From Alphaproteobacteria bacterium (GTDB lineage Bacteria > Pseudomonadota > Alphaproteobacteria > Rs-D84), in NCBI GenBank assembly GCA_009782725.1, contig WRIM01000011.1, forward strand, positions 1 through 10,329: DNA of 10,329 nt, in the 5' to 3' direction. This document shows positions 3,320 through 9,562 of the stretch, one piece after another. The notes under the pieces were generated by a model. It saw nothing but the letters and a program-made list of their open reading frames with translations. It had not been told where the DNA came from and searched no databases. The first letter of the stretch is position 1. Every line of letters begins with the position of its first letter. The position numbers and the translations under genes are program-made.

Positions 3320-4954
3320 CTAGTTCAGCGGCGCCCCCCAGTTTTGTTGTATCTGTCTTTCGGCATCCATCGGTGATATTAACACCTGAGGAGTCAGCAT
3401 GACGACCAAAACGTCGCGCGCGGATGAAGATTCGCGGCTTCCGCCCAATGCTATGAAATCCGGCTTGCCTAATCCATACCGCGTATCGTTATTCGCTTGG
3501 CGTTCAAAGCCGGACAACACCAACATCTGGCCCGATTCCATGATTACTTCCTGCATAAATGAACGTTCTTCGACATCCGGCAATTGCAGCGTTACCGCGC
3601 CGATTGTTTCAGACCTCATCTGAATCAATTCGCGTATGCTCATTTTGAAAAGCAGCAATATCCGGCCGTTTTCCAAAATATTCGGAAGCAATTGCATATT
3701 GAATCCGGTTTCCAAATCGTCTTGGTCGACGGTCGACGATTCGACAGTTGTAAAGTTGCGCGATTCGAATCGTTTGATATACCCGGTCTTGCGCGTGTTC
3801 GATACCGGCGCGATGCGATTGCTTCGCGTTGTAACGCCGACGTTCGTCACCAATGATATTTTGCCTTGTTTTGCCAATGCTTGGATAAGCGCGGTCGAAC
3901 CCGCAACCGGCCCGAGCGACCCCGCATTGATTGCGCCCGCATTCGGCCCCGCAGGCGTGCCCCCAGGATTGGTGCCGCCGGTAACCGTACGTCCAGCATC
4001 AACGGACGTCAATCCCGCCAAAACCGCGACATTCAAACCGGATGCCGCCGCCTGGGTAGTGCCAGACAGGTTATTAACCGGGTTGGAAACAACATTTAAT
4101 CCGGTCGCCGAATTAATCGCCGCGGCAAGATTCAGACCGAACGCAGAATTATTTGTAATGGAAACTTGCAAAACTTTGACATCGATTGTGACCAATTGGG
4201 AAAGGCGCCTGTTTTGACGCTCTATATATTCCGAAACGCGCGATTGCACGCTTGGCGGCGCGGTTACCGTGATTGTGCCAAGACTGCGCGATACTGTGAA
4301 TTTTGCGCTGTCCGATCCGCCGATCATGCTTCCGACCGCTTTTTCAATTTCTTCCCATTCGCGCAGGTTCGATTCCAACGCCACAGAGTTTCCGTCATCC
4401 GTATGCATACGCGATTGATAGCTTATATCCGTGCCCAATGCGTACAGAGAAAAAGTCTTGGTTTCGGTTTCATAAAACACAACCGATTGTTTGTCGTAAT
4501 ACCATAACAAATCCAAATCCGTCGCAACTTGGGAAAGCAATCCCGACAACTTTCCGGTATACGCGATGTTCATTGTTTTCTTTAATTTTTCGTTCGACAC
4601 CTGGCCGTCTATTTTCACGGGAATATTTGTCACAGAATGTATATTGTTCGCCAAGACTTGCAATGATACGGGATCGTTCAGCAATATGGTGATGCCAGTG
4701 TCGTCTTCGAATTCGTTCGGCAATTTATTGCGATGTTCCAAAACCACAGACCGGTCGCCAAGCCACACGTTTTCAGAAACGGAAATTGTATCGTTGGATA
4801 CTTTGGCCATGGGGTTTTTCGCCATTTGGAAAGCATCGTACGCGTTAACAAAATCATGATCGACGGCGCCGGCCACTTGCTGAGACTCTTTTTTGGCGCA
4901 GCCAAAAGCAAAGAGCAAAGAGCAAAGAGCAAAGAGCAAATATGTTTTTTTCAT
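3320..4954 (-). CDS. pilN: PilN/BfpB-type lipoprotein secretin (type IVb pilus outer-membrane channel)
   Basis: A 544-aa protein, close to PilN/BfpB length (about 550-560). It has a short basic N-terminus, a hydrophobic stretch, and a lipobox-like AFGC with C19 as the probable lipidated cysteine. Next comes an STN-like N-domain (around DPVSLQVLANNIHSVTNIP). A ring-building domain (TVSRSLGTITVTAPPSVQSRV) and a Gly/Ala/Pro/Asn-rich loop near residues 320-355 follow. The C-terminal secretin beta-domain includes DLETGFNMQLLPNILENGR. Such proteins form the gated outer-membrane pore for type IVb pili. The gene follows the TcpQ-like gene by 83 bp and ends at a terminator. The RBS is GAGGGA, four bases from the ATG. 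Residues 6-19 are encoded by 7-nt tandem repeats, giving two 7-aa units LLFALCS / LLFAFGC. The symbol is by family resemblance. Confidence 0.88.
   Translation of the reverse strand: MKKTYLLFALCSLLFAFGCAKKESQQVAGAVDHDFVNAYDAFQMAKNPMAKVSNDTISVSENVWLGDRSVVLEHRNKLPNEFEDDTGITILLNDPVSLQVLANNIHSVTNIPVKIDGQVSNEKLKKTMNIAYTGKLSGLLSQVATDLDLLWYYDKQSVVFYETETKTFSLYALGTDISYQSRMHTDDGNSVALESNLREWEEIEKAVGSMIGGSDSAKFTVSRSLGTITVTAPPSVQSRVSEYIERQNRRLSQLVTIDVKVLQVSITNNSAFGLNLAAAINSATGLNVVSNPVNNLSGTTQAAASGLNVAVLAGLTSVDAGRTVTGGTNPGGTPAGPNAGAINAGSLGPVAGSTALIQALAKQGKISLVTNVGVTTRSNRIAPVSNTRKTGYIKRFESRNFTTVESSTVDQDDLETGFNMQLLPNILENGRILLLFKMSIRELIQMRSETIGAVTLQLPDVEERSFMQEVIMESGQMLVLSGFERQANNDTRYGLGKPDFIALGGSRESSSARDVLVVMLTPQVLISPMDAERQIQQNWGAPLN
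4906..4940 (-). repeat. Heptanucleotide tandem repeat inside the secretin signal peptide
   Basis: Four exact copies of GAGCAAA on the plus strand (4913..4940), with a fifth 6-of-7 match at 4906..4912. On the coding strand this is TTTGCTC repeated. Since 7 is not a multiple of 3, one or two units gained or lost would shift the secretin frame; three units would add or remove seven residues. Confidence 0.9.
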
Positions 4955-4980
4955 GTTATCCCTCTATACAAACAACAATT

Positions 4981-5008
4981 ATTGCTATTTGCTAATTGCT
5001 ATTTGATA
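4981..5008. repeat. Degenerate heptamer repeat in the secretin leader
   Basis: Four 7-nt units on the plus strand: ATTGCTA, TTTGCTA, ATTGCTA, TTTGATA. On the mRNA (minus) strand they read TATCAAA TAGCAAT TAGCAAA TAGCAAT. They are the same heptamer as in the secretin signal peptide but in opposite orientation, with the RBS and start codon between the two arrays. Confidence 0.75.
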
Positions 5009-5010
5009 AT

Positions 5011-5040
5011 TAATTTTTTGGCGTTTGCGCCAAAAAATTA
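5011..5040. repeat. Perfect 13-bp hairpin overlapping the TcpQ-like stop codon
   Basis: TAATTTTTTGGCG (5011..5023) is exactly complementary to 5028..5040 around a 4-nt loop. The outer arm includes the TAA stop of the TcpQ-like gene. Its core is only four G/C pairs flanked by A6/T6. In the direction of transcription the T-run precedes the core and an A-run follows it, so it is not a normal terminator. It could act as an mRNA processing or stability element between the two pilus genes. Confidence 0.7.
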
Positions 5041-6069
5041 TTCCCCACCCGAAGTCGTCACGACGACAACCCGGTTTCCTTTGTAAAATTTTGCGTGCGG
5101 CGCCGGATTCGCGCGCGAGAAATTGCGAACCAATGCCGACGACACGTCAAGATATCTTCCTTTGAACACTGCCGAAGCCTGAATAGGATATTCGCGGGAC
5201 GTCGCCCATACAAGGTCCCAGCCTTCCTTATTGCTCCAATCTTGCAACACATCGCGCAATGTTTGACCCGATGCCACTATCCATGAACGAACTTGGTCTG
5301 CTTTGCCTTCCGCGGGTTCCGCGTCATGTTCTGCGTATTCGGTATCATCGACCGCAATGTCGGATCCGTCCCAACCAAAGCCGCCGCCGCTGTTTCCTAT
5401 GAATGCGCCGTTGTCGCCGAATTCAACCATATTTCCGAACGCGCCGTTCATCGATATATTGTTGACGACGGCCATGCGCCGGGCGTTCGCCGCCGCGCGC
5501 TCTTGATTAATTTGACGGCCAGACCGCGACATGGCAAGAACAGAAGCGCCGTCGTCTTCCATCATTTCCGCATGCATCAGTGGCATTTCCGCATTATGCT
5601 CGTATATATTGAATCCGCGCGGCGCAGGATATCCGTGCGTCATGTTCGCGCCGCCCGAAAAGGCAAAAGGATTGTTGCGGCTTCCGCCGAACATGCCGCC
5701 CGCATTTATATTATTTTCAACGACCAAATCCGCGCCGATATTCGACACTATCTTTATGTTTTCATCGCCGCCGGCAAAATTCTGGCTGATATTATTATCT
5801 ACCGATATGGGCGCAAGCTGCATATCCGCGTCCGAACCCGGCGCGGGCCACACGCCGTTATAAACCTCAACCTCGGGGCATGGGTCGACGAATGGGGGAA
5901 TATCTTGAACCGGGGCGGCGTCATAATATACGGGTTCCGCTGCGCCAGCGCACGGAGTTTCATAACCGCATACAGGACCGTCCGGTTCCCAAACCGGCGG
6001 CAGACCGCTTGCAAACGCGTACCCGACGCACGTCGCAAAAAGCGCGAAAATAAAGATATTCCGGAACAT
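5038..6069 (-). CDS. TcpQ/PilL-like periplasmic pilus-assembly protein
   Basis: A 343-aa protein with a signal peptide (hydrophobic residues 4-19; likely cleavage AFA|SG after residue 20). A low-complexity region rich in Pro, Gly, Asn and Ala follows. The C-terminal domain at about 259-340 begins WIVASGQTLRDVLQDWSNK and ends HAKFYKGNRVVVVTT. This resembles the TcpQ C-terminal domain (also in PilL of IncI plasmids), which works with the type IVb secretin. The pairing with the secretin gene 83 bp downstream supports this. The linker holds three similar stretches centred on VDNNI, VENNI and VVNNI (near 92, 119, 203) and a Met/His-rich patch (158-180). It is probably periplasmic or bound to the outer-membrane channel. 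The start at 6069 has the SD sequence AAGGA at a good distance. Linker function is unknown. Confidence 0.82.
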   Translation of the reverse strand: MFRNIFIFALFATCVGYAFASGLPPVWEPDGPVCGYETPCAGAAEPVYYDAAPVQDIPPFVDPCPEVEVYNGVWPAPGSDADMQLAPISVDNNISQNFAGGDENIKIVSNIGADLVVENNINAGGMFGGSRNNPFAFSGGANMTHGYPAPRGFNIYEHNAEMPLMHAEMMEDDGASVLAMSRSGRQINQERAAANARRMAVVNNISMNGAFGNMVEFGDNGAFIGNSGGGFGWDGSDIAVDDTEYAEHDAEPAEGKADQVRSWIVASGQTLRDVLQDWSNKEGWDLVWATSREYPIQASAVFKGRYLDVSSALVRNFSRANPAPHAKFYKGNRVVVVTTSGGE

Positions 6070-7510: not shown

Positions 7511-7516
7511 TATAAT
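7511..7516 (+). promoter_or_regulatory. -10 element of the suf operon promoter
   Basis: A perfect TATAAT. The hexamer 17 bp upstream (AGCACA, 7488..7493) matches only the last three bases of the -35 consensus. The predicted transcription start is 7523 or 7524, at the preferred sufB start codon. Confidence 0.55.
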
Positions 7517-7523
7517 GACTTTT

Positions 7524-8867
7524 ATGTTGAACAAAGACACCATTATTTCTATATCGAAAAAACGGAACGAGCCGGGGTGGTTACTTGATTGGCGGCTTGC
7601 CGCATATGAAGCGTGGAAAAAAATGCCGGAACCCCATTGGGCCGAAATCGATTACGCGCCGATTGATTACGATTCTTTATCTTATTATAAGGAACCGGGC
7701 ACGGCACCCGTCCGCGATAATTCGGATTTAAAGAAAATATATGAAAAAATGAAGCTGCCCATTGCGGAACAAAACGCCCTTCTTGGCATGGCGACGGACG
7801 TGGTCATAGACAGCCGAAGCGTTCATACATCGTACACCGTGGAATTGGAACGTCTGGGGATTATATTTTTGCCATTTTCCGAAGCGGTTGAATGCCACCC
7901 CGAATTAATAAAAAAATATCTTGGAAGCGTGGTACCGCCCGGCGACAATTTTTTCGCGGCGCTCAACGCGGCGGTATTTTCCGACGGAACGTTTGTCTTT
8001 GTTCCGCGGGATACTAAATGCCCGATTGATTTGGCGTCTTACTTTCGTATAGAAACCGCGCATATCGGCCAGTTCGAGCGAACATTGATAATTGCCGAAC
8101 CGGGCGCCGAGTTATCATATTTGGAAGGGTGCAGCGCCCCGCGCCGCCCAAACCACCAACTTCACAGCGGCGTTGTCGAAGTAATCGTGCAAGATAACGC
8201 AATCGTAAAATACGCAACGGTTCAAAATTGGTATGCGGGAGAATACAGTTCTTCAACACGAAAACAAACCGGCGGCATATATAACTTTGTCACAAAACGC
8301 GGGCGCGTTGGCGCGGCCGCGCAATTACTATGGACTCAGGTTGAAGTTGGAAGCGCGGCGACATGGAAATACCCAAGCAGTATTTTGGCGGGCGATTACG
8401 CGCATTCGGATTTTTATTCGCTAAGCATCACGCGCGGGGGCCAGCAAGCCGACACGGGAACAAAAATGATTCACGTCGGAAATAATACCACATCTAATAT
8501 AGTATCATACGGAGTCGCATTGGAAGAATCGCGCCAAACATTTCGTTCGTTGGTACATTTTGGCGCGAATACGACGGGCGCCAAAAACGCAACCAATTGC
8601 GATTCGAAAATCATAGGCGACCGGGCGGTTATAAACACGTTCCCGACGATATTCCACGGCAACGGAAAAAACGACCAATCGCACGAAGCATCCACCGGAG
8701 CCGTTCCCGCGGACGCCCTCGCCTTTCTTGCCTTTGCCGGAATCCCGGCCGACGAAGCAACGGCATTAATCATCGGCGGCGCGGCGGCGCCGGTATTAAA
8801 ACGCCTTCCCATGGAATTTTTGGTGGAATCGAAACAGCTGATACAAATGGCATTGGCACAGGAGTAA
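7524..8867 (+). CDS. sufB: Fe-S cluster assembly scaffold SufB
   Basis: A 447-aa SufB, slightly shorter than the usual 470-495. SufB forms the SufBC2D complex in the cytoplasm, where [Fe-S] clusters are built on the SufB-SufD interface using SufC ATPase energy. The N-terminus has the family phrase EPGWLLDWRLAAYEAWKKM and IDYDSLSYY. The core has QNWYAGE, GGIYNFVTKRGR and QADTGTKMIHVG. C359 in NCDS and H387-E388 in SHEAST correspond by motif and by their 28-residue spacing to E. coli C405 and H433/E434. The end, LPMEFLVESKQLI, is typical. An in-frame ATG at 7515 lies inside the -10 box, so 7524 is preferred. No SD sequence precedes either ATG. sufC follows after 2 bp. No IscR/SufR-type regulator gene is seen here. 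Confidence 0.95.
   Translation: MLNKDTIISISKKRNEPGWLLDWRLAAYEAWKKMPEPHWAEIDYAPIDYDSLSYYKEPGTAPVRDNSDLKKIYEKMKLPIAEQNALLGMATDVVIDSRSVHTSYTVELERLGIIFLPFSEAVECHPELIKKYLGSVVPPGDNFFAALNAAVFSDGTFVFVPRDTKCPIDLASYFRIETAHIGQFERTLIIAEPGAELSYLEGCSAPRRPNHQLHSGVVEVIVQDNAIVKYATVQNWYAGEYSSSTRKQTGGIYNFVTKRGRVGAAAQLLWTQVEVGSAATWKYPSSILAGDYAHSDFYSLSITRGGQQADTGTKMIHVGNNTTSNIVSYGVALEESRQTFRSLVHFGANTTGAKNATNCDSKIIGDRAVINTFPTIFHGNGKNDQSHEASTGAVPADALAFLAFAGIPADEATALIIGGAAAPVLKRLPMEFLVESKQLIQMALAQE
8860..8864 (+). promoter_or_regulatory. Ribosome binding site of sufC
   Basis: AGGAG inside the last codons of sufB, five bases before the ATG at 8870. It fixes the sufC start and argues against longer readings of the frame, which stays open upstream through sufB. 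Confidence 0.75.
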
Positions 8868-8869
8868 TT

Positions 8870-9562
8870 ATGAAAAACAAACCAATACTTTCGATAAAAA
8901 ATCTTACCATGTCGCATGCAGGCAAAGAATTGCTGCATGATGTTAATCTTGATATCGACGCGGGCACGCGACATTTGATTCGCGGCGCGAATGGTTCGGG
9001 TAAGACGACGCTTGTCCAAACTATTGCCGGCGCGCCGAACTATAACGTCGATTCCGGCAAGATTATTTTCGACGGCAAAGATATTACGAAATTATCCACA
9101 ACCGAACGGGCGTTGGCCGGAATATTTCTGGGGGCGCAAATCGTGCCGGAAATCCCGGGATTGACGGTTACTTCATTTTTAAAGCATTCCTTGTCCGCGC
9201 ATGCGGCCGCATCCGGCCATGAATTGTCGGCGGGAGAATTCTTCAAAGACCTTGCGCGGGCGCGCGAACAATTAAATATCCCGGAAAACTGGCTAAGCCG
9301 AAGCATAAATGTCGGATTTTCCGGGGGCGAGAAAAAGCGCCTTTTATTCTTGCACCTTTTAATGTTAAAGCCGAAATTGGCGGTACTGGACGAGCCTGAC
9401 TCTGGCGCGGATGCGGCGGCCCAAAAACTTTTCGCAAACGCAATCTTTGAAATGAATAAAAACGGCACGACATTTATTGTCATATCTCACCAAGAAAAAT
9501 TCACAGAAATGTTGAACCCGACCGCAATAACGACTTTGGATCACGGCCGAATTGTGATATAA
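8870..9562 (+). CDS. sufC: Fe-S cluster assembly ATPase SufC
   Basis: A 230-aa ABC-type ATPase, a little shorter than the usual ~250. Walker A is GANGSGKT at residues 39-46 (K45). The Q-loop region reads GAQIVPEIPG, the SufC-style EIPG context. The ABC signature is FSGGEKKR near residues 150-157. Walker B ends at D174-E175 in LAVLDEPDSGAD, and the switch histidine is H207 in VISHQEKF. The DSGAD after Walker B and GGEKKR are characteristic of SufC. It hydrolyses ATP to drive conformational change in the SufBC2D scaffold. The gene begins 2 bp after sufB with a strong RBS in the sufB tail. The frame continues upstream through sufB, but only the 8870 start fits the family N-terminus. Confidence 0.95.
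   Translation: MKNKPILSIKNLTMSHAGKELLHDVNLDIDAGTRHLIRGANGSGKTTLVQTIAGAPNYNVDSGKIIFDGKDITKLSTTERALAGIFLGAQIVPEIPGLTVTSFLKHSLSAHAAASGHELSAGEFFKDLARAREQLNIPENWLSRSINVGFSGGEKKRLLFLHLLMLKPKLAVLDEPDSGADAAAQKLFANAIFEMNKNGTTFIVISHQEKFTEMLNPTAITTLDHGRIVI

Follow-up and report, generated by a model that had tools for sequence, protein, structure and literature searches.

The heptamer tract at the start of a pilus secretin gene in an Rs-D84-type alphaproteobacterium is best regarded, at a probability that we put at about 80%, as one member of a genome-wide population of heptamer arrays in a reduced genome, copied by slippage and between hairpin arms and filtered by the encoded peptides. The arrays are numerous, have a specific period of seven bases, tend to pair as inverted repeats, lie inside genes and turn over between congeners. 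The window, i.e., the whole stretch of DNA that was analysed (10,329 bases), is one whole contig of a draft genome (G000; 723,186 bases in 131 contigs, 79% complete). Among the genomes compared, several isolate codes belong to termite-gut projects. The excerpt of PMC12306168 used here assigns Enterousia to Rs-D84, an uncultured order, and describes reduced genomes; G000 is probably a member of this order. An earlier note on this DNA had presented the secretin tract as a possible phase-variable locus; it overlooked both a near-complementary array at about 4982-5011 and the genome-wide array population.

Table 1. Features of the secretin region in window coordinates, with the evidence for each
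Feature	Position	Strand	Evidence
Secretin, PilN/type IVb pilus-like	3320..4954	minus	PF00263; TIGR02520 under cut-off
Diverged last copy of the array, up to the conserved (putative lipidation) cysteine codon	4900..4906	minus	TRF to 4903; fuzzy array 4900-4942
Heptamer array (TTTGCTC)4 + TTTGCT, coding strand	4907..4940	minus	Direct reading and TRF
AGAGGG ribosome-binding-like site and ATG start codon, between both arms	4952..4965	minus	Direct reading; fold
Second heptamer array, AAATAGC/AATTAGC units, 5' untranslated region	about 4981-5011	minus	TRF and fuzzy array search
TcpQ-domain protein gene (PF10671), directly upstream of secretin	5038..6069	minus	ORF list and Pfam

The secretin matched the superfamily model PF00263 at 48.5 bits (gathering score 27.5), and its score of 253.7 bits against TIGR02520 (PilN-type, type IVb pilus secretin) fell short of the cut-off of 287.65. 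From its conserved cysteine, it is probably a lipoprotein. The N-terminal peptide is MKKTYLLFALCSLLFAFGC, with the two-unit pattern that the earlier note had described, and the array encodes LLFALCSLLFA, the hydrophobic core of this signal peptide. On the coding strand, ATGAAAAAAACATAT is followed by four exact TTTGCTC units, TTTGCT, the diverged copy and the cysteine codon. TRF reported an array at 4903-4940 with period 7, 5.6 copies, 96% matches and 3% indels, and the lag-7 identity run spans 27 bases, which bears out the claim of four exact copies plus a near-copy between start codon and cysteine. The further suggestion that the lipobox itself is a diverged repeat copy is plausible, as TRF extends the array into it with an indel. 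For any other lag from 4 to 12, the longest identity run within the window was 9 bases; the lag-7 run never exceeded 9 in 100 Markov shuffles, and none of 20,000 synonymous recodings of the signal peptide reached 27 (best 20). These shuffles and recodings indicate that the heptamer repeat is real at the DNA level and not in the protein alone.

After the stop codon of the TcpQ-domain gene, a GGCG-CAAA-CGCC hairpin with T/A runs on both sides (5014-5037, minus strand) resembles a two-way terminator separating this gene from the secretin. At the far end of the window (7515-9562), SufB/SufD- and SufC-like genes of iron-sulphur assembly were recognised by eye. Within the window, no Rfam family was matched at gathering scores.

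For the genome-wide survey, an array was called where lag-7 identity reached at least 80% over 21 bases, and other periods were tested identically. The sample of G000 consisted of the window and twelve other contigs, its longest (184,360 bases), and contained 81 period-7 arrays, made of 35 different heptamer units, vs. 0, 2, 2, 1, 0, and 1 arrays for periods 5, 6, 8, 9, 10, and 11, respectively. Exact lag runs of at least 10 bases numbered 50 at period 7, vs. a mean of 0.4 in five shuffles. In stretches from 24 other genomes (1,054,160 bases), 161 period-7 arrays were found, vs. 2, 13, 13, 10, 0, and 0 for the same other periods; these stretches are a non-random sample, some having been chosen around MnmG and PheT homologues, and before the latter were added there were 25 period-7 arrays vs. 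at most 8 at any other period. Period-7 arrays reached densities of up to 5.5 per 10 kb and were absent from the stretches of 10 of the 24 other genomes. Period-8 arrays occur as well (7 in G008 and 4 in G013), and the secretin start of G009 (L033) reads as an octamer repeat, CTCTTATT. The repeat (CAAAGAG)3, the unit of the secretin tract as read from the opposite strand, is limited in lineage: it was present in 11 of 183 family genomes and in 2 of 398 phylum genomes, including G000, while the reversed unit, used as a control, had no match among the family genomes and 1 among the phylum genomes. A (CAAAGAG)n array of at least 7 copies is present in a distant genome within that phylum (G590:C1:284010-284058).

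Neighbouring arrays are commonly inverted relative to each other. Among 25 pairs of G000 neighbours at most 160 bases apart, 22 matched better in the inverted orientation, 2 in the direct orientation and 1 tied, and an inverted match at 6 or 7 of the 7 positions was seen in 17 of the 25, vs. 6.3% of all array pairs. The neighbouring arrays of the other genomes were inverted in 22 of 25 cases. Many G000 arrays are single, without a partner. The A-rich arm came first in all 20 scored pairs of G000; a general rule to this effect was rejected, since it held for only 12 of 21 pairs in other genomes. At the secretin, the consensus of the upstream array (about 4982-5011) is the reverse complement of that of the secretin array at 6 of 7 positions, and the arms are 40 bases apart.

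What an array encodes depends on where it lies in a gene. Arrays within the first 35 codons encoded hydrophobic sequence in 13 of 15 cases in G000, vs. 6 of 29 internal arrays (Fisher P 5e-5), and the other genomes gave 25 of 30 N-terminal vs. 19 of 65 internal arrays (P 1.4e-6). Ten of the 40 signal-peptide-like ORFs in the G000 sample bear an array at that place, a 7.6-fold enrichment over area that is partly circular, because T-rich arrays by themselves give signal-like peptides. The TTTGCTC strand has no stop in any of its three frames and encodes a hydrophobic 7-residue cycle, LLFALCS, and the strand opposite a T-rich array reads as a hydrophilic linker (KEQRAKSKEQ). Among ten sampled (CAAAGAG)n stretches, eight hold a signal-peptide-like ORF start written by the array (3 of 5 in G000, 3 of 3 in G031, which holds further such arrays outside the sample, and 2 of 2 in G004), e.g., MKKIALCSLLFALCAQGAFA, MKKIYLLFALCSLLFAPAMA, and MKKSFLLFALCSLLFVAAC; in the other two, L274 and L275, no signal-peptide-like open frame start was seen.

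A crude script that takes the longest ORFs served as gene caller, and 44 of the 81 G000 arrays fell inside 28 of its predicted ORFs. As all predicted ORFs together make up 91% of the sample and the remaining 9% holds the other 37 arrays, arrays clearly favour intergenic space per base, and by that measure the in-gene arrays are a tolerated minority. The G000 population as a whole is neither mostly intergenic by count nor dominated by one unit. Pfam matches were obtained for 22 of the 28 array-bearing ORFs, many of them housekeeping genes, and 6 had no Pfam match. The matched products, with short names assigned by us (MnmG and IleRS also matched solved structures), are the secretin, MnmG, IleRS, PheT, PheS, SufBD, LpxK, YbeY joined to Lnt, a BamB-like protein, a porin, a pseudouridine synthase, LpoB, an RNA methyltransferase, MltA, a PD-(D/E)XK nuclease, KsgA, a D-Ala carboxypeptidase, a SurA-like protein, Der, a transketolase, SRP54, and TolB. 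In MnmG, a nearly perfect heptamer hairpin of 69 bases (-36 kcal/mol) lies in frame; the loop at this site is shorter in congener G001 and in most of the relatives aligned, and is long in G008, G011, and G013. In PheT, an array replaces a loop with little lengthening. YbeY-Lnt contains a hairpin whose two arms both encode protein: KEQRAKSKEQ comes from the first arm, and LLFALCSLLF, where the membrane domain begins, from the second. YbeY and Lnt share one open frame (L040:2702-4798, minus strand), and this fusion may be old in the family, because ORFs of G005 and G003 align across both parts.

The secretin itself is widespread, being present in 52 of the 60 genomes searched. Among the best 120 of 830 matches (7998 candidates scored), the closest homologue was about 80% identical; the nearest named relative with this secretin, 80% identical, is a MAG labelled Rickettsiales bacterium Gx485_bin105. 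Two overlapping searches supplied 110 secretin loci (30 and 80), of which 4 lacked a usable start, and together they represent 88 distinct start regions. By a looser test, 10 of the 88 had an array within the coding sequence of the signal peptide; nine of these are family loci from five genera, including G000, and the tenth (L197) is weak and A/T-rich. The dominant units differ: TCTGCTA in G001, TATGCTC in G024, TTTGCTA in G002, TGTGCTC in G004, and TTTGGGC in G016. They are also partly common, as TTTGCTC also occurs in the loose array of G020, and unit variants are shared between G024 and G004; the array of G005 is degenerate. Since dominant units differ between congeners (G000/G001 and G004/G016), the arrays turn over on species time scales. 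For 11 coding sites of G000, an orthologous site in the G001 sample could be compared; the heptamer threshold was passed in both genomes at the secretin alone, with a different unit in each, and two other sites came near the threshold (0.76 and 0.71).

Several other explanations of the secretin tract were weighed against this background. The earlier note had pointed to a contingency locus, in which slippage of a 7-base repeat would switch the pilus secretin. NeuO of E. coli K1 shows that switches of this type can exist, and the mechanical part of the proposal stands. A secretin is a surface-structure gene, the unit is not divisible by three, four copies are exact, and the differing dominant units of congeners mean that the arrays do change on some time scale. 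As the note had anticipated, slips of one or two units shift the frame (89 and 96 aa after loss of one or gain of two units, 28 and 35 aa after loss of two or gain of one), an ORF matching the alternative frame with a stop at 4678 is present in the ORF list, and a change of three units keeps the frame (537 and 551 aa after loss and gain, respectively). The step from this pattern to a switch is unsupported, as arrays of the same kind also occur in essential-type genes. The tracts are not concentrated in dispensable surface or interaction genes: MnmG, IleRS, PheS, PheT, Der, SRP54, KsgA, and Lnt all hold such arrays, and slippage in them would be costly or fatal, so that finding an array within a gene does not point to a dedicated switch. 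The secretin frame is open through the signal-peptide array in all 8 relatives that have one, each being another species represented by a single consensus genome. The 4-5 copies here lie near the bottom of the neuO range of 3-53 given in the excerpt of PMC13001214 used here. The earlier note had also held that related secretins encoding the same peptide with non-repetitive codons would refute its proposal, and the coding-part array is absent from 78 of the 88 distinct secretin starts. Phase variation is mechanically possible and unsupported, and a dedicated switch is very unlikely. That the codons repeat simply because the peptide LLFALCS repeats, i.e., pure selection at the protein level, can hardly be the explanation: although the signal peptide is itself a 7-residue repeat and signal peptides are of low complexity, the failure of all 20,000 synonymous recodings to give the 27-base run largely refutes it, and arrays of the identical unit are found in other genes and frames.

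The upstream arm raises the prospect of an RNA switch, in which the 5' untranslated array would pair with the signal-peptide array and hold the ribosome site and the ATG in its loop, tuning translation. The RNA fold over the secretin start has a z of -4.2 in G000 and of -6.8 in G002, where the arms are closely matched and the unit is different, and the ATG also lies between the arms in two further G000 genes (L041, 7059/7159 and 11494/11590). Against this, the mean fold z was +0.26 across the 88 distinct secretin starts, with z below -2 in only five, the upstream arm is absent at the secretin of congener G001, and MnmG holds a similarly built hairpin within its coding sequence, where no start codon is at stake. 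A conserved regulatory RNA hairpin at the secretin start codon was rejected, as it is not conserved over the 88 start regions, and such a switch as the reason for the tract is quite unlikely. Another candidate is a dispersed mobile hairpin element resembling the Rickettsia palindromic elements, which would insert with both arms and leave the arrays as worn or grown remnants. The in-frame hairpin in MnmG, longer than the loop of G001 and most aligned relatives, and the inverted pairing of 22 of 25 G000 neighbours agree with it. However, 35 units in one genome leave no common consensus that could move, a large number of arrays are unpaired, the PheT array replaces a loop rather than lengthening it much, and the MnmG site, also long in G013, G008, and G011, may simply be tolerant. 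We consider this origin unlikely.

Under the preferred explanation, that of a genome-wide array population, arrays would arise and be homogenised via replication slippage plus copying between hairpin arms, and selection would filter the remaining arrays by their encoded peptide. The secretin array would act as the hydrophobic core of the signal peptide; changes of three units would keep the frame, and other changes would inactivate the gene and probably be purged rather than exploited. Being open in three frames and hydrophobic, the T-rich strand allows arrays at gene starts to supply the core of a signal peptide, and on the best reading it is this signal-peptide property of the T-rich strand that has kept the heptamer array at the secretin. 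More tentatively, and at somewhat less than an even chance, the heptamer hairpin process of Rs-D84-type genomes may be a continuing source of protein sequence that overwrites gene starts and loops with arrays, one strand of which would supply signal peptides and the other hydrophilic linkers, orthologous signal peptides being repeatedly rewritten in new units. These genomes, in which heptamers are dense, paired as inverted repeats and present even within essential proteins, offer a natural test case for the origin of signal peptides and linkers out of repeat DNA. They also caution against taking a repeat for a phase switch on the sole ground that it lies in a surface gene.

Rickettsia palindromic elements are in-frame palindromes within protein genes of a reduced-genome alphaproteobacterium, and they form sequence families with a consensus. 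An in-frame palindromic insertion of this type is seen here in the MnmG hairpin, the one case that was examined closely, whereas the G000 hairpins share only the 7-base period and, with 35 units, no consensus. The Rickettsia in-frame palindromes are the nearest parallel for insertion into coding sequence. Coding palindromes of nematomorph mitochondria are likewise inverted repeats in protein genes with both arms translated; they are mitochondrial, and the abstract of PMC6649704 does not mention a heptamer structure. NeuO of E. coli K1 shares with the secretin a 7-base repeat in the 5' coding part and a frame restored every third unit, and 42 of 64 genomes are off according to the excerpt of PMC13001214; unlike NeuO, the secretin shows no off allele among eight relatives, its copies are few, and many other arrays exist in the genome.

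Many bacteria have an excess of heptamer repeats, and slippage, favoured by the contact length of the polymerase, has been proposed, according to the excerpts of PMC4692102 and PMC4679880 used here, in which the cases described have a single unit type and are mostly intergenic. The heptameric simple sequence repeats of Xanthomonas (GGGAATC) and Nostoc (GGGGA(T/C)T) resemble those studied here in being genome-wide 7-base arrays, some in inverted pairs, with lengths that differ between related species (PMC4692102, excerpt). There, each genome has one G-rich unit type, and 7-11% of the Xanthomonas repeats overlap ORFs (same excerpt), whereas in G000 the 35 units lean towards AT, and predicted ORFs hold 44 of the 81 arrays, some of them in signal peptides and in linkers of housekeeping proteins. 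The TAACTGA repeats of Beggiatoaceae also form many heptamer arrays, often near start codons, and are described in the excerpt of PMC4679880 as having one unit, mostly just upstream of starts, with one inverted case; here, in contrast, units are many, inverted pairs are common and arrays are able to encode a signal peptide. A literature search over titles and abstract openings retrieved no description of heptamer arrays serving as signal peptides. Nor did those titles and abstract openings show the combination seen in the Rs-D84-type genomes, of many units, inverted pairs, and arrays used as signal peptides and linkers.
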